NCBI GenBank assembly: GCA_019915015.1
Contig: JAHBBC010000035.1
Span: 124,001 to 188,000 of the forward strand
DNA: 64,000 nt
Direction of reading: 5' to 3'
Source of the DNA: Auriscalpium vulgare
Taxonomy: Eukaryota > Basidiomycota > Agaricomycetes > Russulales > Auriscalpiaceae
This document shows, piece after piece, positions 1,919 to 55,701 of the stretch; within the stretch, counting starts at the first letter, position 1; the number at the start of each line of letters is the position of its first letter. Below the pieces are notes generated by a model. The model saw nothing but the letters and a program-made list of their open reading frames with translations, searched no databases and was not told the DNA's origin. The position numbers and the translations under genes were made by a program.

Positions 1919-4499
1919 CGTTCCGCACGATATGAACCTGGAGGTACAATGTCATGCTTCCGAACTTGATAGGAACGTTACGTGCCAGCCCGAGCGACTC
2001 GGAAACCTGCTTGTTCGCCGATTGGAGGCGAATCTTGATCTCGGGGTCGTAGTGAAGCTCGAGGAAGTGACATACCTCCTCGCTCATCGCTATTACCTGA
2101 GATCCAGGGTCGAGAAGGCATTCGATGGCGACTCGGCTGGCAACAATCCCGTCGATGGACTGAAGCGAGTGGGAGTCGTTTGCGACGGTCAACGCGTTGG
2201 GATCGAACATGCTGTCGTGCGTGTGAGAGTTCAGGTAGACCTCGATCGGGTTGCCCATGACGCCTTTGTTCGATGCCGGCCAAACGGAGTCGACGGTCGA
2301 CCTGCGTGGATCGGGGGCGTAGTGGGCAAGGAGTACCGTTTCCGAAGCTCGGATTGCCGCTGCTGGCGAAGTGAGCTCCTCGTCGGGTACCTCCTCGACC
2401 GTGACCTTGTAGCTTGGCTCTACTTCCTGGACGTTCGCTGCTCGACGAGGCGTGATCGCGTCGCGGAACTTCTGGCGAACTTCGGGGGCGAGCGAGAGCA
2501 GTTCTTCCGGCGTGAGCGAAAGCTGAACCTCCTTCATGGCGCGTTCGAAGACGGCTTCGGCCAATTCGGTGCGGTGAACCGGCGGCGCGTTGCGAAATTG
2601 TGGTTCGTGAACGGCTGGTTTGCTCGGATCGGCTGGAACCGTCTTCGGTTTGATGGGGGCGGAGGTCGCGTCGCGGACGTTGCGGAATGGGTGAACTGGA
2701 ATTTGCTTAACTTTGCTCGCCTCGGGTTCGGGTGCCTGTGGCGCTTGCTTCGGAGGCTCTGCTTGCGCAATCTTCGGAGGCGGTGGGCCAACTTTGGCTT
2801 TAGCCGGGCGAGTAATCTCGACCCTATCGAAGACTTGCGCATATGCAGCATGTTGCGACCGAAGTGCAGCCAGTTCGGCTTCGAGTCCTGCGATGCGATC
2901 TACCTTCGTGAGCGAAAACGTCTGAAGCGGAGTGGGGAGCAATTCCATCATGAGGGTCGAAGCTACCACGGGCTTGACCGAAGGGTTGCGACGATACCAC
3001 TCTTGGACTCGGTCGCACAAGAAGTCGCCGGTGATGGCCCGAGGAACGAAGCTGCCGTTGGCAAGCGTGACCTTGCCTTCGCCGTTCCGAACGATAAGGC
3101 CTGCGCGAACGTCTTCTTCGACGAGCTCGCAAGACGATATACGATGTTCGGAGCTTCCACAGTACAAACAACGTCCGGCAAGGCGCAGCATTGCTGCTGC
3201 GCGTGCGTCCGCTGAGGAAGTACTTGCGGTGGAAGACGCGGCTGTGGCTGGTGCTGCTGCTGCTTCGACTGCGTTCGCGGCCGCTTTGATCGGGCCCGCT
3301 AGTGTTGCAAGCGAACCACCTTGCATCAAGCTTCGGACGAGTGTCGCAAGGAGATCTTCTGCCTTGATGGTTGGGGCAGGTGAAGGCGTGGCGGCGACGA
3401 CAACGGGTGCTGGGGGAACGACTGGGGTGGCTACGAGCGCGCCGGTCCGAAACGCGTCGGCGTCGGACTGGAGGACGTACTGCCCGGCGAGGTAGGCGTC
3501 TGAGACGTCGTAAGGGTCGCCTGCGATGACGTCGGGCTTCTTGATCTGGAGCCGAGAGTTAACCTTCGGCCAGAGGGCGTTCGGGATACCTCGGGAGAAC
3601 GCTCGGTTCTGCTCCATCGTCGAAAGACGTCCTTTGAGCACTAGGAAGCCCGAAATGGTCAGATACTCTCGATGATACGTAGCGAAGTCGTCGAGAGTCA
3701 ATGTAGACTTTGCTCGCGTCTGTTTGACGAGCTCGTCTAGGTCGGCCGTTGTATACGCTCGGTCGGCGTCGGCCCCTGGATAGAGCTTACCGACCGCTAC
3801 CTTGAACTCGTCGTATGTGGCGTTGCCAGTGAATTCGATCATTGCGTCGAACAGGTCGGCGGTTGCTGTGGGGACGTAGTTCTTCGTCCAATCCTTCTTC
3901 GCGCGGTCAGTGACAACGCCCGCAGGTCCGAAGAACACTTCAAGGTCAGGCCAAAACCTACGGATCTCGCGGGGTTTGTCCGGCGTGAACACAGGCGCTG
4001 TTCGGGCGAGCCTAGATGGCATCGGGACGAGGGCGGCCATTGCTGGTGGTTGTGTGGAGTATGCGGGTGGTGGGTGGATAGGGCGGAGCGAAGTGAGTTG
4101 CGAAGCCTGTGGGCGTTTCGGAAGCGAAGGCGAAGGCGAAGGCGGAGTGCGCGGGGTCGGAGGTTGCAATGAGTGAAGAGGGGTGAGAGTCGATAGCGGT
4201 GGCAGCGGCGAAAGAGATCGCAGAGGCGTAGAAAATCCTCCGGGAACGTGGAAGTCGAAGTCGAAGTCAGGGTCGGCGTCGTGCTGAGTACCTGAAGGTT
4301 CGGGGAGAACGTCGTTGTTTACCTCGTCTTCGGAAGCCTCGTCGGAATGCGGGTCGTCAGGGGCGGGGTAGACGACGTGGGACCGACGAACTTCGTCGGC
4401 GAGGGTGGCGGAGCGAAGTTGATAGCGAGAGACGAAAGGCGAAGTTGCTTCGGAAGGCTTTGGAGGAATGGTGACAGAAACCCTCGCGGTGGGCTCCAA
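1731..4499 (-). CDS. gag-PR: Gypsy element I Gag-protease polyprotein
   Basis: Open frame of up to 922 codons. The Gag part carries a CCHC zinc knuckle (CLYCGSSEHRISSC, C-x2-C-x4-H-x4-C) near residue 445. The protease part near the C-terminus has the active-site motif L-L-D-P-G-S and a later Y-D-I-L-L-G-R-P-F-D block, as in elements II-IV. The frame runs through the primer-binding site, so the formal start at 4499 is not an ATG. The first in-frame ATG codes for MAALVPMPSR, about 150 codons in. Either initiation is upstream by a non-ATG codon or the N-terminal acidic, proline-rich region is not translated. It is clearly related to the other Gag proteins here but well diverged. Confidence 0.85.
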   Translation of the reverse strand: MEPTARVSVTIPPKPSEATSPFVSRYQLRSATLADEVRRSHVVYPAPDDPHSDEASEDEVNNDVLPEPSGTQHDADPDFDFDFHVPGGFSTPLRSLSPLPPLSTLTPLHSLQPPTPRTPPSPSPSLPKRPQASQLTSLRPIHPPPAYSTQPPAMAALVPMPSRLARTAPVFTPDKPREIRRFWPDLEVFFGPAGVVTDRAKKDWTKNYVPTATADLFDAMIEFTGNATYDEFKVAVGKLYPGADADRAYTTADLDELVKQTRAKSTLTLDDFATYHREYLTISGFLVLKGRLSTMEQNRAFSRGIPNALWPKVNSRLQIKKPDVIAGDPYDVSDAYLAGQYVLQSDADAFRTGALVATPVVPPAPVVVAATPSPAPTIKAEDLLATLVRSLMQGGSLATLAGPIKAAANAVEAAAAPATAASSTASTSSADARAAAMLRLAGRCLYCGSSEHRISSCELVEEDVRAGLIVRNGEGKVTLANGSFVPRAITGDFLCDRVQEWYRRNPSVKPVVASTLMMELLPTPLQTFSLTKVDRIAGLEAELAALRSQHAAYAQVFDRVEITRPAKAKVGPPPPKIAQAEPPKQAPQAPEPEASKVKQIPVHPFRNVRDATSAPIKPKTVPADPSKPAVHEPQFRNAPPVHRTELAEAVFERAMKEVQLSLTPEELLSLAPEVRQKFRDAITPRRAANVQEVEPSYKVTVEEVPDEELTSPAAAIRASETVLLAHYAPDPRRSTVDSVWPASNKGVMGNPIEVYLNSHTHDSMFDPNALTVANDSHSLQSIDGIVASRVAIECLLDPGSQVIAMSEEVCHFLELHYDPEIKIRLQSANKQVSESLGLARNVPIKFGSMTLYLQVHIVRNVAYDILLGRPFDVLTESIVHNFQNEDQTVTIRNPNTGDRLVIPTYPRGHHRFREEQIAQARL
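4481..4498 (-). promoter_or_regulatory. Element I primer-binding site
   Basis: Read on the minus strand this is TGGAGCCCACCGCGAGGG. It lies a few bases inside the LTR edge (CATCA end, TGATG at 4503 on the plus strand). The same 18 bases follow the 5' LTRs of elements II and III. The leading TGG fits pairing to the CCA end of a tRNA; the tRNA was not identified. Confidence 0.7.
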
Positions 4500-4638: not shown

Positions 4639-6372
4639 GGGCTGTGGGGCTTAGTTTATTCACTATGTCCCTACAGTTGTAACAAGTGGGTGGTGTCATA
4701 GGCAGGCAGGATAGTGAAGTGCAAGTATAGGGCAGTATAGTGCAGTATAGTGCACTATATTGCATATATCAGTACTATGGTGTCCTTGGATGCACTATAG
4801 TAGTAGCATGACTGTAAGGACCATTGTATTTTTGCACCAATATAATAGGCTTTGAAAATGTTATAAATAATGGTGTAGATGCACAGGTGGAACTGCTATA
4901 TAGATGTAATTCAGCAGAATATATCTGGTTAATGGTAGAGAGCTGTAAGGCAATCACTGTCCAATGGATCCCATGGGTTTATGTACTATAGTGAATCAAT
5001 AATATATTACAGAAATGCTGGGATATATGCACCTTCTCTCCTTTCAAATGAGCTCTATAAATTCGAATAATATTACAGCATGCGGCTTAGTATAGTGCAT
5101 ATGTAACCTGAATTTACCAGAATATAGGGGGTCATTTCTGAGGAGTTGTGCAGTGCACACTGTATCAGATATTCATCTACTATAGTGATGTTATACTCTT
5201 TGAAGCTTTCTTAATTTGTTATGGGATGACTGGACATTCATAAATCATGACGAAAAAGGTGGGCATATCTACCACGCATGCCACTGCTGTCTGAATTTAT
5301 CATAATATCTGAAGCCATTGGTGAGCCACTCCAAGGCATATATGTTTGTGCACTATAGTGGTGATCTAATTGGTTGGCCACAAAAGCATATGATATGTCC
5401 AATAGCTCTCCAGTACTTGGTCAATATTATCCACAGTAATTATAGAGCATTCACAGACCATGCCCCACCCAATGCTCAAAATATGGGAATTCTACCTAGA
5501 GTTGGCAGAAAGTGCTGTAGTTCCACTCTCATACAGCCTGTAAAGTCTGAGGTATCCTTGTCCCAGGGTGATCCAGTTTATGATCAGGCATATGGACATA
5601 AATGTCTATTTCTTTTACAGAGGATGAGCTTGTGCTCAAGTAAGCTTCATGGATCATGGCTCATTGAAAAATAAACAATCATTGCAGTTCACACATATGC
5701 TTGGATGTATCTGCAGATGGGACAGGGACATATGGATCATTTAGGCTGTATCAAAGGATCAGAAGTACGGTACTATATAGTCATCCCATAACAAATTAAG
5801 AAAGCTTTAAAGAGTATAACATCACTATAGTAGATGAATATCTGATACAGTGTGCACTGCACAACTCCTCAGAAATGACCCCCTATATTCTGGTAAATTC
5901 AGGTTACATATGCACTATACTAAGCCGCATGCTGTAATATTATTCGAATTTATAGAGCTCATTTGAAAGGAGAGAAGGTGCATATATCCCAGCATTTCTG
6001 TAATATATTATTGATTCACTATAGTACATAAACCCATGGGATCCATTGGACAGTGATTGCCTTACAGCTCTCTACCATTAACCAGATATATTCTGCTGAA
6101 TTACATCTATATAGCAGTTCCACCTGTGCATCTACACCATTATTTATAACATTTTCAAAGCCCATTATATTGGTGCAAAAATACAATGGTCCTTACAGTC
6201 ATGCTACTACTATAGTGCATCCAAGGACACCATAGTACTGATATATGCAATATAGTGCACTATAGTGCACTATACTGCCCTATACTTGCACTTCACTATC
6301 CTGCCTGCCTATGACACCACCCACTTGTTACAACTGTAGGGACATAGTGCACTAAACTACTCCCCAGTGTTG
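4639..6372. mobile_element. Foldback DNA transposon copy 1 (long TIRs)
   Basis: The arms 4639-5230 and 5780-6372 are near-perfect inverted repeats of ~590 bp around a ~550-bp centre. A second copy lies at 46661-50025, and the sequence shared by the two copies defines the ends (GGGCTGTGGGG on the left, CCCCAGTGTTG on the right). It is flanked by ACGTGGA direct repeats. Subterminal DNA is full of TAGTGCACTATA-type motifs, as is common for transposase-binding regions. No transposase is encoded, so it is non-autonomous. Long TIRs suggest a Mutator-like or foldback type, but the 7-bp duplication is atypical and the superfamily is open. It is AT-rich against GC-rich surroundings. Confidence 0.85.
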
Positions 6373-14059: not shown

Positions 14060-14911
14060 TGATGGGACCCGCCGCGCTACAGGCACCGAAACGGGCCGAT
14101 CGCACCGCTACAGAACGATACACACCCCCGAGACGCCCATAGGGCGTCGAGGCAACCACACGACCACGATGCGATACTCCGGAGGCAGGGCGACACAGCT
14201 GCGATAACAGACGGCGTAGGGGAAGCGTACCGTGGAGGGGGGCGAGACTTAGCGGGGCGCGAGTGCACGGGCCGTGGGAGAGCTGACGAAGCAGCGGTAT
14301 ATAGATGCGATTCATACTCTTGTATAGACACTTTTTGGACCCTGGGCCTACACCCGAGACTACACCTTTCATTCCTGCTTCACAGAGAGCATCGCACGAC
14401 GCGACACCGCCAGACCAGCCCGACACGATGCCTTAAACCAGGAAGCCGTAGCGACATCCGGGTCGCGCCACCTTTGCGATACCACGGGCTACGCTGCCCC
14501 GACTCAACCACAGACTGGAGTGATACAGTGTGGTAGGTTTTATGACTGACGTTTATATTCCAGGATAGCGACTCGGACGGTACAAGCGCGGGGACACAGG
14601 TCGGACGGTCGGACGGCAAGGGCGACTCCGCAACTAGGACGGACCGGCGGCGACAGACGGGAGGGTCGCACCGAATAGTGTGGGAAGAGACGCAACGTGC
14701 GACGGTCGGACGGGAGCGGAGAGAGAGAGAGAGAGGGAGAGGGCCGCAGGACGAGGGCAGGACCCGCGGGGTCCTGGGTGGTTTGTTCGGGGCACGGTCG
14801 CGATCTTGGGTTTCTTCCTCCGACCCACTACCTCTTGGGCCAGCGGTTGGCTGCTCGCTCCCTCCATTTCTATCGACGTTCCCGGGGCCTCCCCCAGGGT
14901 TCATCTCATCA
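14060..14911 (+). repeat. Element II 5' LTR
   Basis: Starts TGATG and ends CATCA (5-bp terminal inverted repeat). It contains a TATA box (TATATAGATG, 14298). A short segment with GTAGG, a CTGAC branch-like site and TTCCAG lies around 14529-14562 and recurs in element III. Same length and apparently the same sequence as 27727-28578. Open frames inside it on both strands are repeated only because the LTR is. Confidence 0.92.
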
Positions 14912-14960: not shown

Positions 14961-17900
14961 ATGGCACCAAAGGCGAGGGTTATCGTAGAGCCCACTCGAC
15001 GCGCACCGCCCCGATCGGCCCCGTCGGAGTACTCGACCAGTCAGCGGGCGGAGTCCATGCCAGGACACCTCGCATCGTCGGAAGGTGGGGCGTCGGACGA
15101 AGAGCGCGCGACTTCCAGCGCTGAAGGCGCCGAGGGCGACAACGAAAACGACGACGGCGAGGCATCGGGTGTGTCGGACGCAGCACCCGAGAACGACGGG
15201 GATGCTGCGGGCGAGGCTCCCGGCGATCAAAACGCGGAGGCAGGCCCTGTCCAATCGGAAGAGTCGGAGCACGGTTGGGATGGTAGACGGTCCCTCCATC
15301 AGGAGCTCCTGGACGTCAATGAGGCGTCGATCGAGTTGCTGACTGGCGGAGCGATGCGACAATGGTCGTCGCCGGAGCTTACCCCGTCGGAATCGGAGCC
15401 CGAAGTGGCTGCGCTGATTGATGAGGACCGAGACGAGGCACAGGTGCCTTCCGACAGCGACCGCTTGGCTTCCGACCGCGGAAACGTCGGAACGCACGGA
15501 GGTTTATCAGGAGACGGGCGTGGAGCGGCCGCACAGGTTTCCCGACCAGTTTCTCCCACATCGCAATCCAGTACTCCGTTATCGCGTTTACCCCGTCGCA
15601 CGACCATGGCCACTCCGATGCCTACCCGTGGCGACCGCCAAGCCCCTAAGTTCGACAATCTTAAGCCGCGCGAGCTGCAACGCTATTTCGCGGAGTTGAG
15701 GCACTTGTTCACGCGGGCGGGTATTGAGGACGGCCAGGACCAGGAGAAGAAGGAGCACGCCACGCGATACCTGGACGTCCTTACAGCAGACCAGTGGCAA
15801 AGCCGACCCCAGTACGCGGGCAATGCGACGTTCGAAGAGTTCGCGACCGCGATCATAGCGCTATACCCCGGAGCGGACGAGGAGCGCAAATACACGATGG
15901 GCGACCTCGATCAGCTCGTCGCCGAGACAGCCCGCCGAGGCGTCACGACCATTGGCGACGTTGGGGAATACTATCGCGGTTTCTACGCGATCTCCCAGTT
16001 TCTTATAGGGCGGCAGCGTATCTCCGAGCGCGACCGCGACTACACTTTCTTGCGTGGATTTCAGAAGGGACTGCAAGATAGGATAGAGCAGCGGCTGCAG
16101 CTGAAGTATCCCGACCACGATCGCGACGGCCCGTACCCGATGGACCAAATAGTGGAAGCGGCGCGGTACGTGCTACACGGCACGTCGAGCACCCCGCGAT
16201 CGGCAGGGCTCAGCGTCCCCGCGGGTCTGGCCGACTTGTCCCAACCCGTGGCCGTCAAGGCGGAAGAACCTGCGATCAAGGTCGAGCAGTTTGCCGCTCT
16301 GATGGAGAAGGCGGCCGAGCAGATCGCGAAAGCGTATAGCGCGGGGAGAGCCGATGCGATGGGGATGAGTAACGCAGGCCCGCAGCCGTCGGCGTACACG
16401 CGCGGGCCACCGGGCCCGATGATGGCGTCGGCCGCTCGTTTCGATCGTCCTCGCCCGGCCCCGGGACAGGATGGCGCCAGGTGCTCGTTCTGCAACGGTC
16501 CCGAGCACTTCATCCGCGAATGCCTCGTCCTGCAAGACTACATAGCGACGGGGCGGGTGGTACGCAACGAGATGAACCAGGTGGTACTCAAGAGCGGCAG
16601 GCCAGTGCCATTTGGGCTAGGCCCGATTCAAGCGAGGGTAGACGAATATTATCGCACGGACCCGTCCGGGCTGCGCGCCGACGTCGCGGCCAGAGTCGCG
16701 GGCAACGCGACGGAAACAATGATGTTGGCATCGACAGGTCCCATCGCCGTCACCGACTACCCGCTCCGACCTGCGCGCGACCAGCCGGTCGCCGGGCTCA
16801 TCCAGTTAATCCCGCCGTTGACGGACGACGAGCGACTCGAGGAGTTGCGTCAAGAGATGGCGGTGTTAACCCTCATGAAGGAGCAGAGGAACGCCGGCCG
16901 GGCCCGAAGGGAGGCAGCGATTCGCAACGGAGAGTTACCGCCACCAATCGGTCCGCTGCCCGGGGAGAGAGTGCGATCCAAGAGGCTAGTCCCTGAGGTG
17001 GTCATATCTCCGTCGAAATTCACGGCAAAGCGGCCGAAGGTTACGTTCGCGGTGCCCGAAGATCCAGAGGATGCGGAAGCAGCGAGGGAAGAGAGCGAGG
17101 GCGAGCCGACAGTCGAGAAGGACCCCGAGGAGATAGAGCCGGAACCCATCCATCCTTTCGCCTCCGTACCCGACGCAACCTACATACCCGTCGGGGACGC
17201 GTCCCGACCAGACAAAGGGAAGAAACCAGTCGCCGCCTATACCAAGGACACGCCCATCCATAGTGAGGAAGTCGCGAAGGAAGTCTACGGCCGCGCGATG
17301 GAGACTTCCGTCACTCTGACACAGAGCGAGTTACTGTCGCTGGCGCCAGAAGTACGTTCCCAGTTGCGATACGCTATCACCCCGCGACGCATAGCGGCCC
17401 CGGTACTGTCCAGCGGGGACTCCCCAGTAGCGGTCCTACACACGGTCGTAGCGGAAGGGGAAGGGCCTACCAAGGAGTGGTCGGACCTACCCGGCGACTT
17501 GTACGAGGAAGAGCGCGAGCAGGAGAGAGATCGAGCGCAGGGATACACCTCGCACATGCCGTCGTCGTTCTTGCAGGCCATACAGAGCCAGCCAGCGGTG
17601 CCGCCTCGCGGGTCGCTGGTGCTCTCCGACCCGATGCTGACGTTGATGAGTGCCTCGGCCGAGAAACCGGCCCCGCTGGTGGTCGCAAAAGAGTCATCGG
17701 CATTGCGAGCGGTCCTGCCCTTGGTGGATAACCAAGCGCACATTGAGGCTATCCTGGATCCAGGGTCGCAGGTCATCTCCATGTCCAAAGACGTTTGTCA
17801 TTTTCTCGGCCTGGAATATGATCCCGCGATCACACTGGACATGCTTTCCGCCAACGGCTCGATTGACAAATCCCTCGGGCTAGCCCGCAACGTAGCGCTA

Positions 17901-18143
17901 AAGCTAGGCGACATCACGCTCTACGTGCAGATACACGTCATACGTTCTCCGGCCTACGACATCCTGCTAGGGAGGCCCTTCGACGTCCTCACTGGGAGTA
18001 TAGTCCGCAACTTTGTCGATGAGCGACAGACCATCACGATCACCGATCCCAACACTCAAGCGACGGCGACCGTCCCGACAGTAGAGCGAGGCTCGCGTCG
18101 CATCGTTCAGAGCGCCGGCGAGCGCAGGGATTTTCGGCTCTAG
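14961..18143 (+). CDS. gag-PR: Element II Gag-protease polyprotein
   Basis: A 1060-residue intact frame starting at ATG 14961 (MAPKARV). Residues ~20-210 are acidic and Ser-rich, probably disordered. Residues ~215-400 form the capsid-like part, with KFDNLKPRELQRYFAELRHL and LYPGADEERKYTMGDLDQL. A CCHC knuckle (CSFCNGPEHFIREC) lies at 508-521. The aspartic protease has its catalytic D-P-G-S at ~933 and a Y-D-I-L-L-G-R-P-F-D block ~60 residues later. The stop TAG at 18141 is followed by pol in the -1 frame. Strong amino-acid similarity to element III, with many silent changes, shows past selection. This is the best-preserved Gag of the four. Confidence 0.93.
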   Translation: MAPKARVIVEPTRRAPPRSAPSEYSTSQRAESMPGHLASSEGGASDEERATSSAEGAEGDNENDDGEASGVSDAAPENDGDAAGEAPGDQNAEAGPVQSEESEHGWDGRRSLHQELLDVNEASIELLTGGAMRQWSSPELTPSESEPEVAALIDEDRDEAQVPSDSDRLASDRGNVGTHGGLSGDGRGAAAQVSRPVSPTSQSSTPLSRLPRRTTMATPMPTRGDRQAPKFDNLKPRELQRYFAELRHLFTRAGIEDGQDQEKKEHATRYLDVLTADQWQSRPQYAGNATFEEFATAIIALYPGADEERKYTMGDLDQLVAETARRGVTTIGDVGEYYRGFYAISQFLIGRQRISERDRDYTFLRGFQKGLQDRIEQRLQLKYPDHDRDGPYPMDQIVEAARYVLHGTSSTPRSAGLSVPAGLADLSQPVAVKAEEPAIKVEQFAALMEKAAEQIAKAYSAGRADAMGMSNAGPQPSAYTRGPPGPMMASAARFDRPRPAPGQDGARCSFCNGPEHFIRECLVLQDYIATGRVVRNEMNQVVLKSGRPVPFGLGPIQARVDEYYRTDPSGLRADVAARVAGNATETMMLASTGPIAVTDYPLRPARDQPVAGLIQLIPPLTDDERLEELRQEMAVLTLMKEQRNAGRARREAAIRNGELPPPIGPLPGERVRSKRLVPEVVISPSKFTAKRPKVTFAVPEDPEDAEAAREESEGEPTVEKDPEEIEPEPIHPFASVPDATYIPVGDASRPDKGKKPVAAYTKDTPIHSEEVAKEVYGRAMETSVTLTQSELLSLAPEVRSQLRYAITPRRIAAPVLSSGDSPVAVLHTVVAEGEGPTKEWSDLPGDLYEEEREQERDRAQGYTSHMPSSFLQAIQSQPAVPPRGSLVLSDPMLTLMSASAEKPAPLVVAKESSALRAVLPLVDNQAHIEAILDPGSQVISMSKDVCHFLGLEYDPAITLDMLSANGSIDKSLGLARNVALKLGDITLYVQIHVIRSPAYDILLGRPFDVLTGSIVRNFVDERQTITITDPNTQATATVPTVERGSRRIVQSAGERRDFRL

Positions 18144-18151
18144 AGGCGTCG

Positions 18152-21100
18152 TTGGACGACCAGGCGGAGGTGGCGCTCGTCCTCGAGTTCACGGGCGACG
18201 CCGCCGATCCTATTTCCGTGGAAGCCGTGGTCCCCTTCGACTCCTCTAGTTCGCCGGAAGAGTTACGAGCAACCTATTTATCATTTTGCGATCTCCCAGA
18301 ATCTACCCCTCCAATATTTGATCGGCCGACCGACGCGACTTTAGACGTTCCATCGGCGCCCGTTTTCTTTCTCGCCCCAGCCGGGGTGCCCTCGTTCGCA
18401 GGCGAACAGGAATTTCGCGACTGTAAGTCGCTGCCAAGCAGCGCGCGGGCACGCGCAGTTTTCGCAGCGACCAAGAAAAAGTATAAGCCAGCCCACCTAA
18501 AAGTGAAGCCAGTACTAGCCGACTTGCCTGGGCAGTTCAGAATCATACGCGACATACGAGGCGACCCGCTAGCGACACTACCCAAGTTACCGACGAAGCC
18601 CCCCGACTTCCGGCCGACGGGGTGTTACACCGAGGAGCGCCGCGACCAATTCGACGTAGTTCACGAGGGGGACTTCTTGTGGAAGGAGGAACGCAAGCTG
18701 ATGCACCATTTTATGTGCGAGCACAACGGTGCGTTCGCGTGGGACGACAGCGAGCGAGGCCACTTCCGCGAAGATTTCTTTCCGCCGGTCACGATACCCG
18801 TCGTACCGCACACGCCATGGGTACAACGCAACATACCGATCCCGCCGGGAATCTACGACCAAGTTATGGAACAAATCAGTCGGAAGTTGGCCGCGAACGT
18901 CTACGAACCATCCAATTCGTCGTATAGGTCGCGGTGGTTCTGCGTGGTCAAAAAGGATGGAACGAGCCTGCGCATAGTGCACAGCCTGGAGCCGTTAAAC
19001 GCCGTCACGATAGCTCATTCCGGTGTGCCCCCGTTTACCGACCAACTGGCCGAGCAATTCGCGGGTCGGGCTTGCGGCGCGATGCTGGATCTGTACGTCG
19101 GATACGACGAGCGAGCGTTGGACCCAGCGTCGCGCGACCTCACTACGTTCCAGACCCCTTACGGCGCGCTGCGGTTGGTAACACTACCGATGGGCTGGAC
19201 GAATTCAGTGCCTATCTTCCACGACGACGTCACACATATCCTGAGGCCGGAAATTCCCCACGTCACGATACCGTTTATTGATGACGTACCGGTCAAGGGC
19301 CCCGCGAGCGAATACAAGGACGACCAGGGGAAGTACGAGACAATCGCTGACAACAAGGGCATCCGCCGATTTGTCTGGGAACACTTTCAGAATCTCAACC
19401 GCGTCGTACAGCGCATGGGTTATTCGGGCGGGACGTTTTCGGGTTGGAAGACTATTTTGTGCGCGCCCGAAATTGTCGTGGTCGGACACCGCTGCACGAG
19501 GGACGGGCGGATCCCCGACGAACAACGGGTGGCTAAGATTGTGAATTGGGGGCCATGTCAAGACCTGTCCGATGTGCGGGCGTTCCTCGGGACGGTCGGG
19601 GTGCTGAGGATCTTCATCCACCATTTCGCACATCGCGCGCATGCGCTCACGCACCTTACGAGGAAAGATGTGCCATTCGAATTCGGAGCGGAACAATTAG
19701 CAGCTATGGAAGATCTCAAAAGCGCGTTGCTGGAGTCGCCAGCCCTGAAACCGATCGACTATCAGTCGGGCGAACCGGTTATCCTCGCGGTCGATACGTC
19801 TCCTATTGCGGTCGGGTTCTTGCTGTGCCAGGCTGACGCCGACGATCCGAAGAGTCGCAAGAAGCGTCGGTACGCACGGTTTGGGTCCATCGCGTTGAAC
19901 GATCGCGAGGCGCGTTTTTCGCAACCAAAGTTAGAATTATACGGCCTGTTTCGGGCGCTCCGCGCGCTGAAGATATATCTCATCGGAGTGCGGAACATGG
20001 TCGTGGAAGTCGACGCACGCTACATTAAGGGCATGCTCGACAACCCCGATATTGAACCCTCAGCCAGCATGAATCGGTGGATTATTGCCATTTTAATGTT
20101 CCATTTCGTCCTAGTTCACGTGCCCGGCCTGTTTCATGGGCCTGACGGGATGTCGCGACGAAGGCGCCAACCGGGCGACGTGGCAGAGAATGAGCACGAC
20201 GGGTTCGAGGATTGGGTCGACGCAATGTATGGCTTCATTCACCTCGTGAACGCATACGTACCGCGCAGTACAAGGCCACGGTCGGGGGATCCGCGCGACC
20301 AACCAAGGGCCGCGATCGCAACGTTCGTCACCCAGGCAGCTCCGACAGAGTTGTCGTACGACGCCGTTGACCGCGACATCAAGGCGCAGCAGGCCGATGA
20401 GCGACTCGTTCGAGTGCGGGAATGGCACAACACGCTCCAACGACCGGAGGGCCTCGCCGACCAAGAGTATGCGACGTTCCTAAGGTACTGCACTGAGTTC
20501 TTCCTCGATGGCACGAGTCTCTTTCGCAAGGAGCCGCAGGGGCGCCACCAGCTCGTTTTAGCACCGGAACGCCGCATAGGGGCTTTAAAAGCGTGCCACG
20601 ACGACGTCGGCCATCGCGGCGCGTACCCGACCAAGATGTTTCTCCTCGAACGCTTCTGGTGGCCCTACATGGACCGCGACGTCGCGTGGTTTGTCCGATC
20701 GTGCCACATTTGTCAAGTGCGACAGGTGAAGCACGTGCTCATTCCCCCAACGGTCGCGACCCCGGCGCCGCTGTTCGCCAAGATGTACGCTGATACCATG
20801 CACATGCCGGCTTCGCGAGGTTTCAAATACATCGTACAAGGCAGGTGCTCGGTCTCGCATTTCCCAGAGTGGCGCATGCTGCGTCAGGAAAATGCCAAGT
20901 CGCTCGCGCGATGGATATTCGAGGACGTACTCTGTCGCTGGGGAGCGCTCCGGGAAATCGTAACGGATAACGGGACGCCGTACCTAGCAGCGATGAAGCA
21001 CCTCGAGGAAGATTACGGCGTGCAGCACATCCGCATCTCAGGCTATAACTCGCGATCCAACGGAATCGTAGAGCGATCGCATTTCGACGTCCGACAGGCC

Positions 21101-21451
21101 CTGTACAAGGCCGCCGACGGTGACGCGAGCAAGTGGGCCACGGTCGCACACTCGGTATTCTGGGCGGACAGGATCACAACGCGCAGGCGTATGGGCTGCT
21201 CCCCCTACTTCGCGGCGACTGGCACGCAGGCATTGATGCCCCTCGATATCGTAGAGGCGACGTATCTCCTACCACCGCCCGACTCAATACTGTCGACGAC
21301 GGATTTAATCGCGCGACGGGCTGTCGCACTTCAGAAGCGCCGCACCCAGCTCCGTACGCTCCACTCGAAAGTGTTTGACAAGCGGCGGCATGATGCGCTG
21401 ATTTTCGAGCGCGACCACGAAGCGTCGATCAAGAACTACGGCTTCCAATGA
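18152..21451 (+). pseudogene. pol: Element II Pol (RT-RNase H-integrase), broken near the C-terminus
   Basis: Frame -1 to gag, open from before the gag stop, with no nearby ATG; frameshifting or reinitiation is needed. Residues ~263-390 are reverse transcriptase, with catalytic F-I-D-D-V-P at ~375 in place of Y-x-D-D. RNase H starts near 545 (AVDTSPIAVGF). The integrase H2C2 zinc domain is at ~815-855 (HDDVGHRG, CHIC), then D (YADTM, ~880), D (VTDNG, ~937) and E (GIVERSH, ~972). A TGA at 21449-21451 interrupts the frame where elements III and IV read Q-R-G-D-L-V-L. The frame then resumes and is cut again by an inversion at 21568-21724; the expected end is GSVA with a stop near 21810. Catalytic residues are present, but the C-terminal tail is lost. 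Confidence 0.9.
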
Positions 21452-21567
21452 GGCGACCTTGTCCTGGTACGTTTCACGCAGTTCGAGAAATCACTCGACC
21501 GCAAGATGCTGCCTCGCTACGACGGTCCGTTCATCGTAATTGGGCGGCGACGCGGTGGACCGTACGT

Positions 21568-21724
21568 CGGGGTCAAGCTGTCCGAGAAGCTCGTTTAGTC
21601 GTCGGGCGGGTATGTCGATGAACTCCGGTAGCGGAGGAAGCGTGATGTGTGGTCGCGCGAAGTACGGAATGACGCGAAACTCCGCAGTGGGCCTGTCGAA
21701 GACCGCCCCGTGCATATCACACAG
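21568..21724 (-). other. Small inversion inside element II pol
   Basis: The minus strand here encodes the integrase C-terminal segment (AEFRVIPYFARPHITLPPLP, then IDIPARRLNELLG) that elements III and IV carry in the forward direction at the same place. Flanks 21540-21567 and 21728 onward align forward. ACGT at the left edge and ACAT (ACGT with one change) at the right edge would be the breakpoints. Confidence 0.85.
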
Positions 21725-21825
21725 GACATCCAAGCACAGGAATCACGCAGCATAGACAGCGACGCGTCGGACACCGCGAGCAACAGCGCGGAAGACGGCA
21801 GCGTCGCATGACAGGCCCAATAAGA

Positions 21826-21859
21826 CTGCTGGGGTCAGCAGTTTCCGTCGGGGGGAGGA
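21826..21859 (+). promoter_or_regulatory. Stem-loop plus polypurine tract 1 (after pol, element II)
   Basis: CTGCTG-GGGT-CAGCAG (21826-21841) forms a perfect 6-bp hairpin with a 4-base loop. After 8 bases comes GGGGGGAGGA (21850-21859), then TG. The same arrangement recurs at 26013, 27689, 46305 and 55448. The purine tract could prime plus-strand DNA synthesis, but here no LTR follows, so it would be an internal tract. Confidence 0.6.
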
Positions 21860-22149
21860 TGCGACGGTGCTACTAATTACGTTAAGGAGATACATCGCGG
21901 ACATTGCACGGGGCCGGCGAAAAGGCACGATAGTCTTATTCCATTTCTCTTCTCCTTTTGCGATGGGGGAACATTTTATTTTATTTTTCGGTTCCAAGGC
22001 GCGACGAGACACGGACTAAAAAGAAGCAGGAAACACGAAGAGACAGGCAGCAAGGTGTAAGGTGAGCAAAGAAGAGGTAGAGAAGAACACGGGGACTATA
22101 GTACAGTACGAGCGACGAGAAAACAAGAAAAGGCCAAGGAGTGGCCACC
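21860..22149. other. Non-coding spacer between pol and antisense gene A
   Basis: Homologous to 46338-46610 of element III: both share GTTAAGGAGATACA and CTCCTTTT followed by GGGGGAACA. No gene. It would hold the 3' ends of pol (plus) and gene A (minus), so convergent terminators are expected, but none was recognised. Confidence 0.5.
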
Positions 22150-24244
22150 CTACTCAGCAACGTCCATATAAACGGTCTCGACGGCGTCGCCGACGTCGGA
22201 ACCGTCCTCCTCGCTGCTCTCCTCGACTCCGACCACGCCTTCCTCGCTCTCCTCTTCGTCGTCGTCCGTCTCGTCGTCGACACCCGCTGGATCGGCAGGC
22301 GCGGCAAGGGGGATACCGCCGGCCGAGGGAAGGTCCTCCGCGCTCTCCGCGCCATCCGACACGGCGGGCGTACGAGCAGCGCGCCGGCGACCATACGTGC
22401 GCAGCACGGGATGCACGGGAGCCGGGGACGCGCGCGACTCTACGGAGGGGGCGCGAGCAGGCTCCAGCTCATCCTCCTCCTCATCGCTAACGATCGGGGC
22501 GGCGGGAGTAGAGGCGGCGACGGAGCTGGGCGGAATGGTGGCGAGGGTGGGCGAGTCAGAGCGCCGGTGACCACTGGGCCCAGCGACCGGCGAACTACGG
22601 AGGGAGGGAGAGCGGGAGGCCTCGGAAGCCACAGCGTCGGCGGACACGCGCGAGCCGAACTGGTGCTCGAGCTGGGCAAGGCGCACGAGGAGCCGGTCGT
22701 GACGGTAGGGCCACAGGTTGAGCGTCGTCGCGCTAGCAGCCAGCTCCGCCCGGACGAGCGCGATGGAGTCGGCATGGTCGGAGAAGTTGTCGGCAGGAGG
22801 GAGGTCCTCGAAACGCCGCGCGTCCTCGTCCACCGACGCCAGCACGGACGCGAGGAGGTCGCGAGCCCGACGTGGGGAATCTGAAGGGAGGGAAGAACAG
22901 GTGAGTGTTAGGAGAAGGGTAAGAGGGGCGCAGCAACGTACCTGCAGAGTCGGCGGCCGCCAGTAAGTCCGCAAGGAACTTGGCGAAGAAGGGCGCCGCC
23001 ACAGGCGCCGCAGCGCCGCGACGGGAGGCAGAACGCGGCCGGGGGGCACGAGAAGGAGCGCGGGAGCGGACCGACCGACCACGGGAACGGTGGGGGGAAG
23101 GGGCGCGAGGGCGCGAACCGTCCACGAGTACAGCGCCGCCGCAGCCCTTGCGCTGGGCGCAACAGCGGATGCACTTGGTGGGGCGGTGAGGCTTGAACTC
23201 ACAACGCACATGCCCGCGCACGAAACCAGCCTGGCAGCGGCCGCAGCGGGTAGAAGTCTGGAAGGGTGGACGGTCAGCAACAGCAGGGGAGATGGGGAGG
23301 GGGTAGCTCACCTTGATGCGCTCACCAGCGTACCGCTCGGTGTGCGTCGGGCGGCGATCCGACCGGTGGAACAAGGGGTCGCCGTCACTGTCTACCGCCT
23401 CCGACAGCGAGTCGTTGAGACCACTACCCGGCGACGTCGACGAACGGCTGCGACGGCGGCGAGGGGCGGGCCGACCCTTTTTGGCGGTGCGACCGCGCCG
23501 GGGTTGAGGCGACTCGGTCGCGTGGGGAGACGAGAGGGGTGTGGGGGAGTGCGAGGCGCGGCGCTTCCCGGCGGCTTGGGACGGAGGCTGGACGGTCGCA
23601 GTGGCGGTACGCGCGGCGAGGCGCTCCCCGCGGGCAGAAGGCGGCGGCGGGACCGGCCCCGGGAGCGGCAACACCACCTCCGCGCGGTTCGCGAGCACGC
23701 GACGAGCCTGCGTAAAGAGCGGGCAGAAAGCAAGGGGCGAGGTTAGCGGGTGACGACAGGGACCGCCGATACACGCACCTTGGGGCGGAGCCGGGTAACG
23801 GAAGGGTCGGCCACGGCGACGGTGCCCTCACGCGTCCCAGCGCCGACGAGGGGCAACGGCGTGGCAACGGTCGGAGCGGACCGCGGCACGGTCGCCTGGG
23901 GCGCTTCAGGGGCCTCCGCAGCCTCGTCGTCTTCGTTCGCCTCGTCGAGGAACAGGGGCGGGGGTCGCACGGCTTCTTCAAGCGCGTCGTACCGCGCGCG
24001 CGCCTCGGGGGAGAACGTCACCCCACGACCACGGGCGTCGTAGTAGGCACGCTAGGAAATCGCAAGTCAGAGAGGAAGGCGAGATCAGGAAGAGCAGACG
24101 TACCAGGAGCTGGCGCGCTTGCGGGCGCAGCAGCGCGAGTTGGGCCTCGGAGGTGGCGTCACGCGCCATGGGCTCGAGTAAGCCCAGCTGGAGATCCAGC
24201 ATGGCGCGGGTAGCGGTGGCGTCGGCGACGGTGGCAGCGTCCAT
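22150..24244 (-). CDS. Antisense gene A: Cys-cluster protein with acidic tail
   Basis: Five exons read on the minus strand: 24104-24244, 23779-24051, 23312-23707, 22942-23257, 22150-22880. Introns of 52, 71, 54 and 61 nt all have GT-AG ends (GTACGT, GTGCGT, GTGAGC, GTACGT) and join in frame to 618 residues. Exon 1 is helical (QLGLLEPMARDATSEAQLAL). Exon 3 is basic and disordered. Exon 4 has a cysteine cluster, CGRCQAGFVRGHVRC then CIRCCAQRKGC, probably zinc-binding and loosely like fungal Zn2Cys6 spacing. Exon 5 has a helical block (SVDEDARRFEDLPPADNFSD) then a strongly acidic tail. Nucleic-acid binding is plausible; function unknown. Tails of the same kind end at matching positions in elements III and IV. 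Confidence 0.75.
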
Positions 24245-24733
24245 GGGGTGAGGAATCGGGGGAGCGGGAAGGCGAGCAAGCGAGGTGAGGGGAAGAGGGA
24301 AGAAGGGCGACGGCGACTTCGCCGCAGGCGCACGAACAATGGTGCGTGCGTGGGAGCGACCGGCCGCGTGGCCCGGCCAGAGCGCTGGTTTTGCCTCCGA
24401 GCGCCCACGATGCCAGGTCGATCCGCGATCTGATCAGCGATTGTTGATTTGATCCCGCGACGTACACCGGGCCGCGGCGGGACGACGCGCGCGGCCAAGC
24501 CGCGTGGCGACCACGTGCCCCCGTCGCGAGCGAAATCTCTCAAGTCATTGGCGCCCGTCCCTCCCTCGACGCGCGGCCCCTGCACACTGACGTCGCCTAA
24601 CCAGGCAATGGGTCGCAGATCTAATAGTCCTATTGGGAGGCATTCAACGACGTACATGCAGATGCAAAATGACTACACTAACGCGGGCGCTTTCTTTCCC
24701 TCTACTCCTCGACGCCCCGACAACGCGACAAAG
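24245..24733. other. Spacer between antisense genes A and B
   Basis: It should contain the promoter of gene A (minus strand) and the 3' end of gene B. A CCAAT-like element read on the minus strand (CTCCCAATAGG, ~24630-24640) is the only candidate. The purine-rich run at ~24255-24310 lacks the GGGGGGAGGA core and stem-loop of the other modules. The 13-mer CAATGGGTCGCAG occurs near 24606 and again near 25922. Confidence 0.4.
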
Positions 24734-25915
24734 CTATGGTATGGCAGGGTCGTCGCGTGGGATGCGCCCCTGCTGGCTGACACGACCCCGATTCGCGCCT
24801 CCACCTCGGCGACCGCGGTGAACGTTCTGCCACCCCATCGGGACAGCGCGAAACGTCACGATCTCATCCAGAAACATAGTCGGGTTGCTGTGGATGTCGG
24901 CCAACAATTGAGTGGGGAGGTTCGACGCGAGGATCGCGCTTTCTATCGCAGTCCGGGCATGGAGGCTGTCGATCGTGGTAGCCCACTGCAACGAGTCGCG
25001 AAGAAACGCCGCCGCGGCGGCCTCCAGCGACCCATCCGCCGAATCAAAAGCGTCAACGTAGGGACCCCAGCGACCGCGCGCACTCCGATCGTCGGGTCGC
25101 GCGACTCGAGCGATGGTAGCATAGACCGATTCCACGGTCGCCACCGTCTCGGTAGTGTGGGTGATAAGAGTGTCGGAGAGGGGATGCGCGAGGGTGCGCA
25201 GGAGGTCGGGAAGGGATACGCCAGTGGTCGAGTAGGCCAGGCGATGGACCTCGGACAAGAGGGCCTCCTCCCCGCCATTCAGGCGCTGGAGCGCGGACGC
25301 GCAAGCCTCCATCGTGGAAATAAACTCCGCGTGCACGGTCGCGTCAATGCCCGCGCCGCGACCAGTAGGATGAGCGGCCAGGCAGAGCTCGCCGAGGCTG
25401 CGGCGGTACTGGGGGACGGACGTGCGACCCGATTCGAACGCTGCCCACAGAGCACCCTCGCAAAGGCGGGCGAGCTGCCGAGCATGATCGCGATTGTTGG
25501 GAAAGGTGAAGCCAGCAATTGGGCGAACTGCGAACGTCGGATCGAGTGGAGCGGACGTCGGGGGCGCGATGTCGCTGATGAGAATACCACCCCACTCGGC
25601 GAAGGCAATACGCGACTCGGGGGACACGGTGAACAACGTCTCGAAGATCGGGCCCGCAATCGCCTGCACCAGGCGGAGGACGGACGGCTTCGCGGTATTG
25701 AAAACTTCGCCCTGGAACAACCCGACACCAGGATGAGCGGCGGTCGCGATAACAATGCGAGGACGTACGTAGAGGGCGGCTACCTTGCGACCCCACTCTT
25801 CACGATCCGCGACCAGGGTCTCTACGGGGGCGGTCTCCAAGTCAATGGCAGGGGGCGCGAGGAGTAAGCCGACAAGGGCGAGTGCGCGCGATTCAAGGGC
25901 AAAGGTCGACGACAT
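24734..25915 (-). CDS. Antisense gene B, paralogue of gene C
   Basis: Starts MSSTFALES at 25915. Exon 1 (25769-25915) is 49 codons and ends REEWGRKVAALY. A 57-nt GT-AG intron (25712-25768) is in phase 0; it is also in frame, so the unspliced frame stays open. Exon 2 (24734-25711) gives a spliced protein of 374 residues. After the intron comes LRLVQAIAGPIFETLFTVSP and AEWGGILI, matching LAERILMPILENAILLVP and SWAGRFL in gene C. Mostly helical, no clear membrane segment or known motif. Function unknown. The stem-loop and purine tract at 26013-26049 lies 125 bp before the start. Confidence 0.72.
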   Translation of the reverse strand: MSSTFALESRALALVGLLLAPPAIDLETAPVETLVADREEWGRKVAALYVRPRIVIATAAHPGVGLFQGEVFNTAKPSVLRLVQAIAGPIFETLFTVSPESRIAFAEWGGILISDIAPPTSAPLDPTFAVRPIAGFTFPNNRDHARQLARLCEGALWAAFESGRTSVPQYRRSLGELCLAAHPTGRGAGIDATVHAEFISTMEACASALQRLNGGEEALLSEVHRLAYSTTGVSLPDLLRTLAHPLSDTLITHTTETVATVESVYATIARVARPDDRSARGRWGPYVDAFDSADGSLEAAAAAFLRDSLQWATTIDSLHARTAIESAILASNLPTQLLADIHSNPTMFLDEIVTFRAVPMGWQNVHRGRRGGGANRGRVSQQGRIPRDDPAIP

Positions 25916-26012
25916 GTCAGACAATGGGTCGCAGGCACCAACAGCCCGCGTTTTGTACGCCGTCGGGCACTTGTCGCGACCCGATGCACCGCGGTTTGGC
26001 CGGGGAATGCGC

Positions 26013-26049
26013 GTCTGGGGACAGGCACAGATTTCAGTTGGGGGGAGGA
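26013..26049 (+). promoter_or_regulatory. Stem-loop plus polypurine tract 2 (upstream of gene B)
   Basis: GTCTG-GGGA-CAGGC (with one G-T pair) is followed by GGGGGGAGGA at 26040-26049 and then TG. The tract and its TTTCAGTT lead are nearly the same as at 55470-55483 in element IV and 27711-27726 before the 3' LTR. No LTR follows, which suggests a duplicated 3' module. Confidence 0.5.
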
Positions 26050-26335
26050 TGGCCAGTCGCGAGCGACGAGGAGAAAGATAGGGATTTCCTCGGCGACGGG
26101 TGACCAGCCCGCGCAGGGCACACAAGGAACAAGTGGCCAGAAGTGAGCGGGACAAGACAAAGTCGGAACCGACCACGCGCGACCGAACGCGCGACCCATC
26201 AGAATACTGTCGGAGACCTCGCGACGCTACGAGTTGCCTACGCAGCGGAACACGACGATCATTGCTATGAGACATTGGGGCCACAGTCCTGTGCGATTCA
26301 CGGTGGCCGAAGAGACCATTTACAGAAGGGGTACA
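26050..26335. other. Spacer between genes B and C
   Basis: GC-rich. Short frames on both strands are not supported by splice sites or similarity. It includes the 3' end region of gene C. Confidence 0.4.
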
Positions 26336-27564
26336 CTACTCGCGACTGCTCGCGATGTCGCTATCACTATCGCTGCGATAATCCACTATCGCCCCGACAT
26401 CGCCGACCACCACACGTTCCATCACAGCGGCATTACCTCCGACACCCCCGATGTCCACGGGATCGCCCTGCATCTGCTCGTCGGAGTCGAAACCGCCGGC
26501 ATCGTCGTCAACCGAGCCGACACCATCACCGTCGGGCAAGGCGGGGAGACCCGACAATACACGATGGCGCACGAAGGTTACCAAGAGGTTGTTCGTGTAA
26601 AGGTCGGGCTCGGTCGGGGCGGCTGGGAAATGGCGCAGAACGTATGCCGCAGTCACTGCGTACTCCAGGAAGAGTCGGGTTGCGTGCTCGAGGGAGAGGC
26701 AGGGGTCGCGAACGATGGCTAACAGGTAGGGAGCGTCGGCCCAGAGGGCTTGCAGATTGGCGACGTTCTCCGTAGCCCCGGCGAGCTCCTCGACGGTCTC
26801 GCGGTACACGGCCTCGAAACGAGCTAAAAGGCGCGCACCCAGTCCGCCGAGGTTGCGACCGTACTGCGTGGGGGGCGAAATGGGCCAAGCGGTCGACTCG
26901 CGGGCGACGTAGTCGGGAAGGAAAGCGGTCCCACCACGCGAGTGGCGAATGGAGAGCGCGGAACATTCCAAGGCCTCTCGGAGGACGTACGCGACCCACG
27001 TCTGGTTGCCCAGGGGACGGTCATCGGGGATGGCGGCATGGAAAATGGCAAGCACGCGCAAGTACGACGCAACCGAGCACCCGCGTTTGCGAAACACGAC
27101 CCAAAAGTTCTCCTCAACCAGCGTCGCGGTCAGCCGGACCTTGGGGGCGTCAAGTAGGTCGACCCGATCAACAACGGAGGTCCACGGGTGCAGCTCGGTC
27201 GTAGGGAGCGGGGCGGGACGAAGAAAGCGCCCCGCCCACGAGCGGAAGCGATCCTCGACCTCGGGTACGAGGAGGATGGCGTTCTCGAGTATCGGCATGA
27301 GGATGCGCTCGGCGAGGGGGATGATCAGCCTGGGGTCGGAATCGGTGATGGATTCCTACAGCCGATGGGAGCGGACGGTTAGCGCGACAACGGGGCGGGA
27401 AAAGAGGGGAATCGTACGATGACAGCCAACACCTCCTGTCCCCAACGCTCGCGCGACTCGATCGCTTCGGCGGCTGCTGCGAGTGGGAAGTCCGCGCTGG
27501 GGGCCCGACCCAGGTGGTACAGCAAGAGAGTACCGCGACGGTACGTGTGGGGAGACCAGGTCAT
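26336..27564 (-). CDS. Antisense gene C, paralogue of gene B
   Basis: Exon 1 (27418-27564) starts MTWSPHTYRRG and has exactly 49 codons, ending RERWGQEVLAVI. A 62-nt GT-AG intron (27356-27417, GTACGA to CTGTAG, phase 0) leads to exon 2 (26336-27355), giving 388 residues. I chose this ATG over one 25 codons upstream because it makes exon 1 the same length as in gene B, with Trp at residue 41 in both. Exon 2 includes LAERILMPILENAILLVP, FRSWAGRFLRP and a C-terminal acidic region (GVGSVDDDAGGFDSDEQ). Predicted soluble and helical, no motif recognised. The stem-loop and purine tract lies ~150 bp before the start, as in gene B. Confidence 0.72.
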
Positions 27565-27688: not shown

Positions 27689-27726
27689 CCGACTGAGGAC
27701 AGTCGGTAGCTCAGTTGGGGGGAGGA
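27689..27726 (+). promoter_or_regulatory. Stem-loop plus polypurine tract 3 (before the 3' LTR)
   Basis: CCGACTG-AGGA-CAGTCGG is a perfect 7-bp hairpin (27689-27706). Ten bases on, GGGGGGAGGA (27717-27726) touches the first base of the 3' LTR (TGATGGG), the standard position of a plus-strand primer tract. This makes it the functional polypurine tract of element II. Confidence 0.75.
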
Positions 27727-28578
27727 TGATGGGACCCGCCGCGCTACAGGCACCGAAACGGGCCGATCGCACCGCTACAGAACGATACACACCCCCGAGA
27801 CGCCCATAGGGCGTCGAGGCAACCACACGACCACGATGCGATACTCCGGAGGCAGGGCGACACAGCTGCGATAACAGACGGCGTAGGGGAAGCGTACCGT
27901 GGAGGGGGGCGAGACTTAGCGGGGCGCGAGTGCACGGGCCGTGGGAGAGCTGACGAAGCAGCGGTATATAGATGCGATTCATACTCTTGTATAGACACTT
28001 TTTGGACCCTGGGCCTACACCCGAGACTACACCTTTCATTCCTGCTTCACAGAGAGCATCGCACGACGCGACACCGCCAGACCAGCCCGACACGATGCCT
28101 TAAACCAGGAAGCCGTAGCGACATCCGGGTCGCGCCACCTTTGCGATACCACGGGCTACGCTGCCCCGACTCAACCACAGACTGGAGTGATACAGTGTGG
28201 TAGGTTTTATGACTGACGTTTATATTCCAGGATAGCGACTCGGACGGTACAAGCGCGGGGACACAGGTCGGACGGTCGGACGGCAAGGGCGACTCCGCAA
28301 CTAGGACGGACCGGCGGCGACAGACGGGAGGGTCGCACCGAATAGTGTGGGAAGAGACGCAACGTGCGACGGTCGGACGGGAGCGGAGAGAGAGAGAGAG
28401 AGGGAGAGGGCCGCAGGACGAGGGCAGGACCCGCGGGGTCCTGGGTGGTTTGTTCGGGGCACGGTCGCGATCTTGGGTTTCTTCCTCCGACCCACTACCT
28501 CTTGGGCCAGCGGTTGGCTGCTCGCTCCCTCCATTTCTATCGACGTTCCCGGGGCCTCCCCCAGGGTTCATCTCATCA
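27727..28578 (+). repeat. Element II 3' LTR
   Basis: Same 852-bp length as 14060-14911 with a constant offset of 13667 and no gap; sequence appears identical. Begins TGATG, ends CATCA, followed by GCGG, which is also the last 4 bases before the 5' LTR. Confidence 0.92.
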
Positions 28579-46290: not shown

Positions 46291-46304
46291 AAGGTCCCAC
46301 GGGA

Positions 46305-46337
46305 CTGCTGGGGTCAGCAGTTACAGTCGGGGGGAAG
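46305..46337 (+). promoter_or_regulatory. Stem-loop plus purine tract, element III
   Basis: CTGCTG-GGGT-CAGCAG (46305-46320), the same 16 bases as in element II after pol, then GGGGGGAAG at 46329-46337. Confidence 0.55.
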
Positions 46338-46611
46338 TCGCGACTAGATTGAATCACAAGGTTAAGGAGATACACCACGGACAGTACACTGAGGCTCTTA
46401 GACTTTTATTTTGAGACTTATTTTATTTCTCCTTTTGTGGTGGGGGAACACTGAACATTTACTGAACATTTATTTTGCAACCATAGGCGGACGGAGAGCC
46501 CGCGAAGACTGGAAAAATTGTACTAGTACACAAGAAGAAGCACACCAATCAGGAGAATAACCTACACATATAGTACACGACGGACGCAAAACGAGATCGG
46601 CACCTAAGCAA

Positions 46612-55445: not shown

Positions 55446-55447
55446 GC

Positions 55448-55483
55448 GCTGCGGACAGCACCCCAGGTTTCAGTTGGGGGGAG
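55448..55483 (+). promoter_or_regulatory. Stem-loop plus purine tract, element IV
   Basis: GCTG-CGGA-CAGC (55448-55459), then TTTCAGTT and GGGGGGAG (55476-55483). Same layout as in elements II and III, immediately after the pol stop. Confidence 0.5.
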
Positions 55484-55701
55484 TGGGGCTACGCAAGGCA
55501 GTGGAACAGCGAAGAGGCAACTTGGATTCAACAAAGCGTGAAGCGCGAGGAGGCTATGTACATTTTGGGGAAAGCGGCGGCACGAAAGCAGTATGGATAG
55601 CGACGGGACAGCAGGGCAGGTAAGAGTACAGTAAGAAGGGAAGCAGAATCGACAAGAAGGAGAAGGAAAACAGAAAATGAACAGACAGCAAGAAGGGCCC
55701 A

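Follow-up and report, generated by a model that had tools for sequence, protein, structure and literature searches.

Open reading frames (ORFs) on the antisense strand between pol and the 3' long terminal repeat (LTR) are a known kind of gene in LTR retrotransposons, occurring in plants and in Boty-like elements, and Zhao et al. (2011) is said to be the source study for brtn, the antisense gene of the latter. Here we describe element II, a retrotransposon of the fungus Auriscalpium vulgare in which three putative antisense genes with introns, named A, B and C, occupy this position. The element lies in a stretch of 64,000 nucleotides that was analysed as a whole and is referred to as the window; all coordinates are given on it.

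The Gypsy elements of the Boty type carry brtn in Botrytis (PMC7264820, PMC8365987, PMC4227169). Like element II, they are fungal Gypsy elements with an extra antisense gene placed between pol and the 3' LTR (PMC7264820), whereas the cited passages describe one antisense gene instead of three, a distinction drawn from the descriptions only; the Boty gag-pol also has a chromodomain, according to the cited part of PMC4227169. Maize Grande, with gene23, and rice RIRE2 are likened to element II by description only, as both have an antisense gene between pol and the 3' LTR, but a single gene is described in the cited section of PMC7264820, where gene23 is credited with its own promoter and a nuclear product. 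The Retand elements resemble element II in their antisense ORFs and in the long region from pol to the LTR (2.9-6.6 kb, compared with about 6.3 kb in element II, counted from the first stop of pol to the 3' LTR), and their TRP28 protein is presumed to have a DNA-binding regulatory role in the cited portion of PMC11963269. However, they are plant elements, the word "intron" is absent from the main text of PMC11963269, and the TRP28 domain (PF04195) was not among the Pfam matches of A, B and C at E values up to 10, HMMER filters discarding most weak matches.

A further parallel is offered by the human T-lymphotropic virus (HTLV), which expresses an antisense-strand nuclear regulatory protein as proposed below for A, but is an infectious human retrovirus with a different protein. 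Its antisense gene is named HBZ. Another HTLV antisense gene product is APH-2 (cited part of PMC11963269), and the HTLV antisense promoter lies inside the 3' LTR (cited part of PMC7264820). LTR elements of bdelloid rotifers with an ORF3 share with element II the presence of diverse extra ORFs past pol, although these are enzymatic or env-like and the cited passages of PMC5408684 do not describe an antisense orientation. As far as we have seen, the apparently new features of element II are the number of genes, three, their six conserved introns, the duplicated gene pair and the bracketing copies of a hairpin followed by a polypurine tract (PPT). A three-gene, intron-bearing antisense set was not found in searches of an open-access library, outside which the brtn paper and subscription papers lie, and the word "antisense" is absent from the main text of a survey of fungal LTR elements (PMC3248453).

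The initial annotation of the window had placed three antisense genes with in-frame GT-AG introns between pol and the 3' LTR. All three were found there on the minus strand at the following coordinates, and the annotated product lengths of 618, 374 and 388 residues were reproduced exactly after splicing.

22150..24244, minus strand: gene A, 618 amino acids, five exons and four introns (exons 24244-24104, 24051-23779, 23707-23312, 23257-22942 and 22880-22150, stop included)
24734..25915, minus strand: gene B, 374 amino acids when spliced, one intron (25768-25712)
26336..27564, minus strand: gene C, 388 amino acids, one intron (27417-27356, donor GTACGA), apparent paralogue of B

The introns recur at the same places and in frame in diverged copies elsewhere in the host genome (loci designated by L numbers), which takes the genes beyond chance. 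All four introns of A are of the GT-AG type and interrupt the relatives at L051 (592 amino acids, 60% identical) and L049 (617 amino acids, 33% identical over the alignment) at the same places. The intron of B and C occupies a homologous place in both genes, in their L049 relatives (370 and 387 amino acids), in B of L017 and in the C relative of L050 (395 amino acids), while the donor varies among GTACGT, GTAAGT (in L017) and GTATGT. The position and orientation of antisense additional ORFs of the aORF-3R kind, past pol and ahead of the 3' LTR, were also found in L049, L051, and L050 with L052. The B/C intron of B is an in-frame segment of 57 nucleotides (GTACGT...TTCCAG), so B is also open when unspliced (393 amino acids). 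The intronless form was rejected on the grounds that this segment is nearly neutral, coincides with the intron place of C and is skipped in a public gene model. An earlier choice of donor for C, giving 386 amino acids, was dropped for GTACGA since the public model P0004 retains the two residues preceding it.

Purifying selection on the encoded proteins was evaluated from nonsynonymous and synonymous divergence (dN, dS). B of the window and B of L017 differ at 37, 18 and 149 first, second and third codon positions respectively, and the exons returned a dN of 0.063 and a dS of 0.908 (dN/dS 0.069), indicating strong purifying selection, while the intron taken as codons gave a nearly neutral 0.935. 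The ratio was 0.32 for A and 0.19 for exon 2 of C, the latter at low divergence (dS 0.056) and with C of L029, which has one stop, left out; pol gave 0.037 as a yardstick. In the host genome, stop-free frames were found in 32 of the 33 rows of B spanning at least residues 3-391, in 32 of 33 full-length rows of C exon 2 and in all 21 full-length rows of A exon 5. The public gene models of Auriscalpium vulgare, built on another assembly, agree with the splicing of A and of B/C at their junctions. Across all four junctions, model P0007 (595 amino acids) shares 94.6% identity with A of L051 in its spliced form, P0002, P0004 and P0006 omit the B/C intron, and P0003 begins downstream of it; P0002, P0004, P0005 and P0006 depart from the genes or miss part of them, and P0001 is partial. 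Taken from sequence comparison, these data make it very probable that A, B and C are real, spliced genes selected for the element.

The distribution of the genes was assessed on the host assembly (51.6 Mb, 96 contigs) by six-frame searches, which score best candidates only. The tally comprised 51 of 79 rows for B, 53 of 120 for C, 41 for A and 41 of 42 for the LTR; the B rows omitted were matches to C-type genes, second fragments of the same place and some short fragments on contigs C5, C8, C19 and C27. Many further elements carrying A, B or C were recovered, a point on which the initial annotation had made its proposal depend. A and C accompanied B in the same order and on the same strand at 32 of the 42 close B places tallied. 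The antisense ORFs keep their coding in most copies, elements without any B being left uncounted. A second lineage consists of nine places with a B 32-33% identical to that of the window, all nine with C (about 35%) and with an adjoining match to A exon 4; L049, the one locus of this lineage that was read, shows the same gene order and a pol 85% identical over 299 residues. The search with A exon 4 returned 49 rows, 39 of them at 61-100% and nine at 43-45% identity, plus one at chance level (E 0.9).

A third lineage is represented by L050, with a C at about 26% identity, a B-like ORF and an ORF containing the six-cysteine block described below; its pol, just past the module, is 74% identical over 185 residues. 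The B-like ORF is weakly supported (hhalign E values of 6.1e-5 and 0.11 in comparison with the C and B groups, respectively), no open spliced frame was obtained for it with the junction tried, and for A of this locus the first exon and the cysteine block were read. Over the aligned parts, three more loci of this lineage, L053, L055 and L056, are more than 95% identical to L050 C, and L054 groups with L049. L053 is internally deleted, having kept most of C between the LTR and the pol-end copy of the hairpin-PPT motif and lost B and A; similar spacings, about 1.8-1.9 kb, occur at a few motif pairs among 100 of the 193 motif places in the genome.

Among the places with a B 86 or 87% identical to that of the window and with both A and C, 11 have an A exon 5 100% identical to that of the window and 14 have another one (46-63%), a pattern which indicates that A has been exchanged between element lineages, template switching being the presumed mechanism. 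In the comparison of element II with L049, dN was 0.75-0.77 for B and C, as compared with 0.11 for pol (299 codons, dS saturated). Therefore, the module either diverges several times faster than pol or has been replaced, and its fast divergence points to interactions that are self-specific or antagonistic to the host. Proteins related to A, B and C were matched only in Auriscalpium vulgare among the candidates scored, which share exact words with the query and numbered 7996, 7996 and 7994 per search.

The A protein contains basic stretches, an acidic C-terminal tail and, in exon 4, a six-cysteine block with the conserved pattern ERYAGER..T..RC..C...C.FKPH...KC..C....K.C.GAVL (gaps shortened), which is retained in A of element II, in L051, in L049 and in an ORF of L050. 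The cysteine spacing, determined by eye, is C-x2-C-x8-10-C-x9-C-x2-C-x6-C. Zn2Cys6 domains have the spacing C-x2-C-x6-C ... C-x2-C-x6-C, so the second half fits whereas the first loop is longer in A, and neither the whole protein nor the block matched the Zn_clus profile (PF00172). By analogy, a nuclear nucleic-acid-binding role would fit the basic stretches and the six-cysteine block, and we think that the parallels with Grande gene23 and TRP28 point in the same direction. B and C are paralogues as judged by blastp (4e-7) and hhalign (E 3.8e-12), sharing their intron position, and are predicted to be mainly helical.

Element II itself is a single clean insertion within contig C35 (14060-28578), flanked on its outer sides by a 4-bp target duplication (GCGG/GCGG), with the following features on the plus strand.

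14060..14911, plus strand: 5' LTR, 852 bp, TG...CA ends
14961..18143, plus strand: gag ORF, 1060 amino acids, with aspartic protease (DPGS) and CCHC knuckle
18152..21451, plus strand: pol ORF with reverse transcriptase (RT), ribonuclease H (RNase H) and integrase; early stop and inverted segment at its end in element II
27727..28578, plus strand: 3' LTR, 852 of 852 bases identical to the 5' LTR

As in Ty3/Gypsy elements, the identical LTRs with TG...CA ends are accompanied by a short target duplication and a 3' PPT, and gag is followed by domain matches in the order protease, RT, RNase H and integrase, the RT match lying below its cut-off. The DPGS motif and the CCHC knuckle were identified by eye, and the gag protease matched PF13650 (E 5.2e-7) and PF13975 (E 2.8e-6). 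Pol matched PF17921 (E 9.6e-16) and PF17917 (E 2.7e-11), while its match to PF00078 (RVT_1) was weak (E 0.013; 15.7 bits against a cut-off of 29.6 bits); the protease, RNase H and integrase zinc-domain matches pass their Pfam cut-offs. At 21449-21730, the pol end of element II has a stop and an inverted segment absent from 12 other loci, in a comparison of 14 loci that included element II and L044, which gave no match and was left out. The LTRs are nevertheless identical; the lesion may have arisen on insertion or later, or the copy may have been mobilised in trans.

We consider it moderately probable that the group of element II consists of Ty3/Gypsy-type elements carrying an accessory module of three antisense genes; that A, B and C serve as regulatory or accessory proteins in the way proposed here is, from their sequences, an evenly balanced question. 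The genomic RNA and the gag-pol message would be the sense transcript from the 5' LTR. Since sense-RNA splicing and reverse transcription cannot remove antisense introns, the six introns would be kept through each round of reverse transcription, and the antisense strand would thus suit spliced genes in a retroelement. In the integrated copy, A, B and C would be transcribed from their own promoters, that of C beside or inside the 3' LTR, to yield spliced mRNAs. A would then enter the nucleus, use its basic stretches and six-cysteine block to bind chromatin or nucleic acid, and regulate or protect the element, with B and C as paired helical partner proteins of A acting for the element.

Several observations weigh against this explanation. 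Profile and structure-database searches, suggested by the initial annotation as a check on the three proteins, gave no significant match for A, B or C in Pfam (best E 0.05 for B/C and, for the A block, 0.21, none reaching the cut-off) or in the Protein Data Bank (PDB; best E about 1), and the label of regulator therefore rests on composition and cysteine spacing. The structure models of B and C are of low confidence and too weak for a fold comparison, with mean predicted local distance difference test scores (pLDDT) of 38 and 42, and the cited parts of PMC7264820 and PMC11963269 report no tested function for the parallels, Grande gene23 and TRP28. A, C or both are absent at 10 of the 42 close B places, a degraded tenth place of the second lineage, on contig C19, holds C (34%) and only pieces of B, and L053 indicates that an element does not in every case require B and A in cis. 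Finally, the pol end of element II itself is damaged.

Among the alternatives, the module might be a nested element, namely another mobile unit, or a piece of a virus, that was inserted in reverse orientation and has been retained ever since, with the polypurine motifs as its scars. This possibility brings in the motif, which consists of a hairpin, CTG-NGG(A/T)-CAG, with TCAGTTGGGGGGA or a near variant after it, and occurs three times in element II.

21825..21861, plus strand: hairpin and PPT, copy 1, at the pol end
26011..26051, plus strand: hairpin and PPT, copy 2, between the start of B and the end of C
27689..27726, plus strand: hairpin and PPT, copy 3, immediately ahead of the 3' LTR and serving as the ordinary 3' PPT

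Element II and L049 share three positions of the motif, the pol end and the sites preceding B and C, while in L050 and L052 it was seen at the LTR and the pol end only. Its copies at the pol end and the LTR thus bracket the module in three lineages and relatives of the module are not known, both of which speak for such an insertion. However, the motif on either side is the PPT of the element itself, no inverted repeat of at least 100 nucleotides was reported around the module, and A, B and C lie beside pol or the LTR motif in the loci read, which are a minority of the places. We regard insertion of such a unit as unlikely.

The motif pattern was found at 193 places in the genome and the reversed control at none; among 100 of these places, 19 pairs are about 5.3 kb apart (pol end and LTR) and 8 about 1.8 kb apart (before B and LTR). 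The 7-bp stem pairs in 94.9% of cells over 14 distinct sequences, with changes on both sides at four pairs. In 500 shuffles, neither the covariation score nor the percentage paired was ever attained, while the number of pairs changed on both sides was attained in 20 and that of pair types in 137; the search pattern itself fixes the three inner pairs, the sequences share ancestry, and the arms were picked by eye. The comparison is support for a covarying hairpin and not proof of it. The internal copies possibly serve plus-strand priming or are a relic of the gain of the module. Relatives of the motif were also observed at the pol ends of two other elements of the window, III and IV (about 46304-46340 and 55445-55485).

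A fuller form of the accessory-module explanation would make element II an ambisense retrotransposon, whose spliced antisense genes include a DNA-binding regulator and fast co-diversifying duplicated partners, directed against the host or sister elements, with internal PPT plus-strand starts bracketing a block that is made, and recombined between lineages, as a unit of its own; in its entirety this picture is speculative, and we hold it with low confidence.

The initial annotation had spoken of a cargo module of this lineage, perhaps for packaging, nuclear import or host control. The module stands, given its many copies in the same order and under purifying selection, but the notion of cargo is not supported, the hits in the host genome being mostly repeated. 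Captured host genes, acquired by transduction and carried without serving the element, would account for the presence of introns, for the lack of relatives in other retroelements and for a module diverging more than pol. Against this, all three genes are common, in order, to close and distant elements and remain intact in dozens of copies under strong selection, and no single-copy host homologue stood out among the best candidates of the six-frame searches, whose hits were not individually inspected. An accessory module of the element fits better, nothing pointing to a host-serving payload, and we judge capture of host genes to be quite improbable.

The antisense RNA rather than the protein might also matter, acting through double-stranded RNA or interference with the sense RNA as reported for Ty1, and such control is described for other LTR elements in the cited parts of PMC7264820 and PMC12786077. 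The constraint on B, however, falls on codons while its intron is nearly neutral, which refutes antisense RNA as the sole function and leaves it very unlikely as the main explanation, although it may play an additional part. Chance open frames in GC-rich DNA can practically be dismissed: the window has a GC content of 57% and many long ORFs on both strands, and plus frame 1 of B also has a lowish dN/dS (0.18), but selection is frame-specific, as all five wrong frames of B contain stops (2-20 positions, 11 of them in plus frame 1), the other four give dN/dS values of 2.0-6.0 and the lowest ratio belongs to the coding frame, and introns are common to proteins at about 30% identity and to the public gene models.

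A, B and C belong to a class of genes whose functions are given as unknown in the cited part of PMC7264820, a review that calls for the study of antisense and spliced transcripts. The family offers three antisense genes at once, with introns that would make antisense mRNA unmistakable in RNA data, together with sister elements that have diverged to different degrees, a relative with an internal deletion and codon-level constraint on the proteins.

Further features were observed in the window. At its start (1-1238), three head-to-tail units of 469 bp are identical over the 300 bases compared, and positions 1731-4499 hold a minus-strand gag ORF of another Gypsy element, apparently related as judged by eye. 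Between 46290 and 50050, element III is cut soon after pol, and AT-rich DNA connects it to the gag of element IV; in this DNA, inverted repeats of about 0.5 kb, found also at 4661-6349, mark nested mobile elements.

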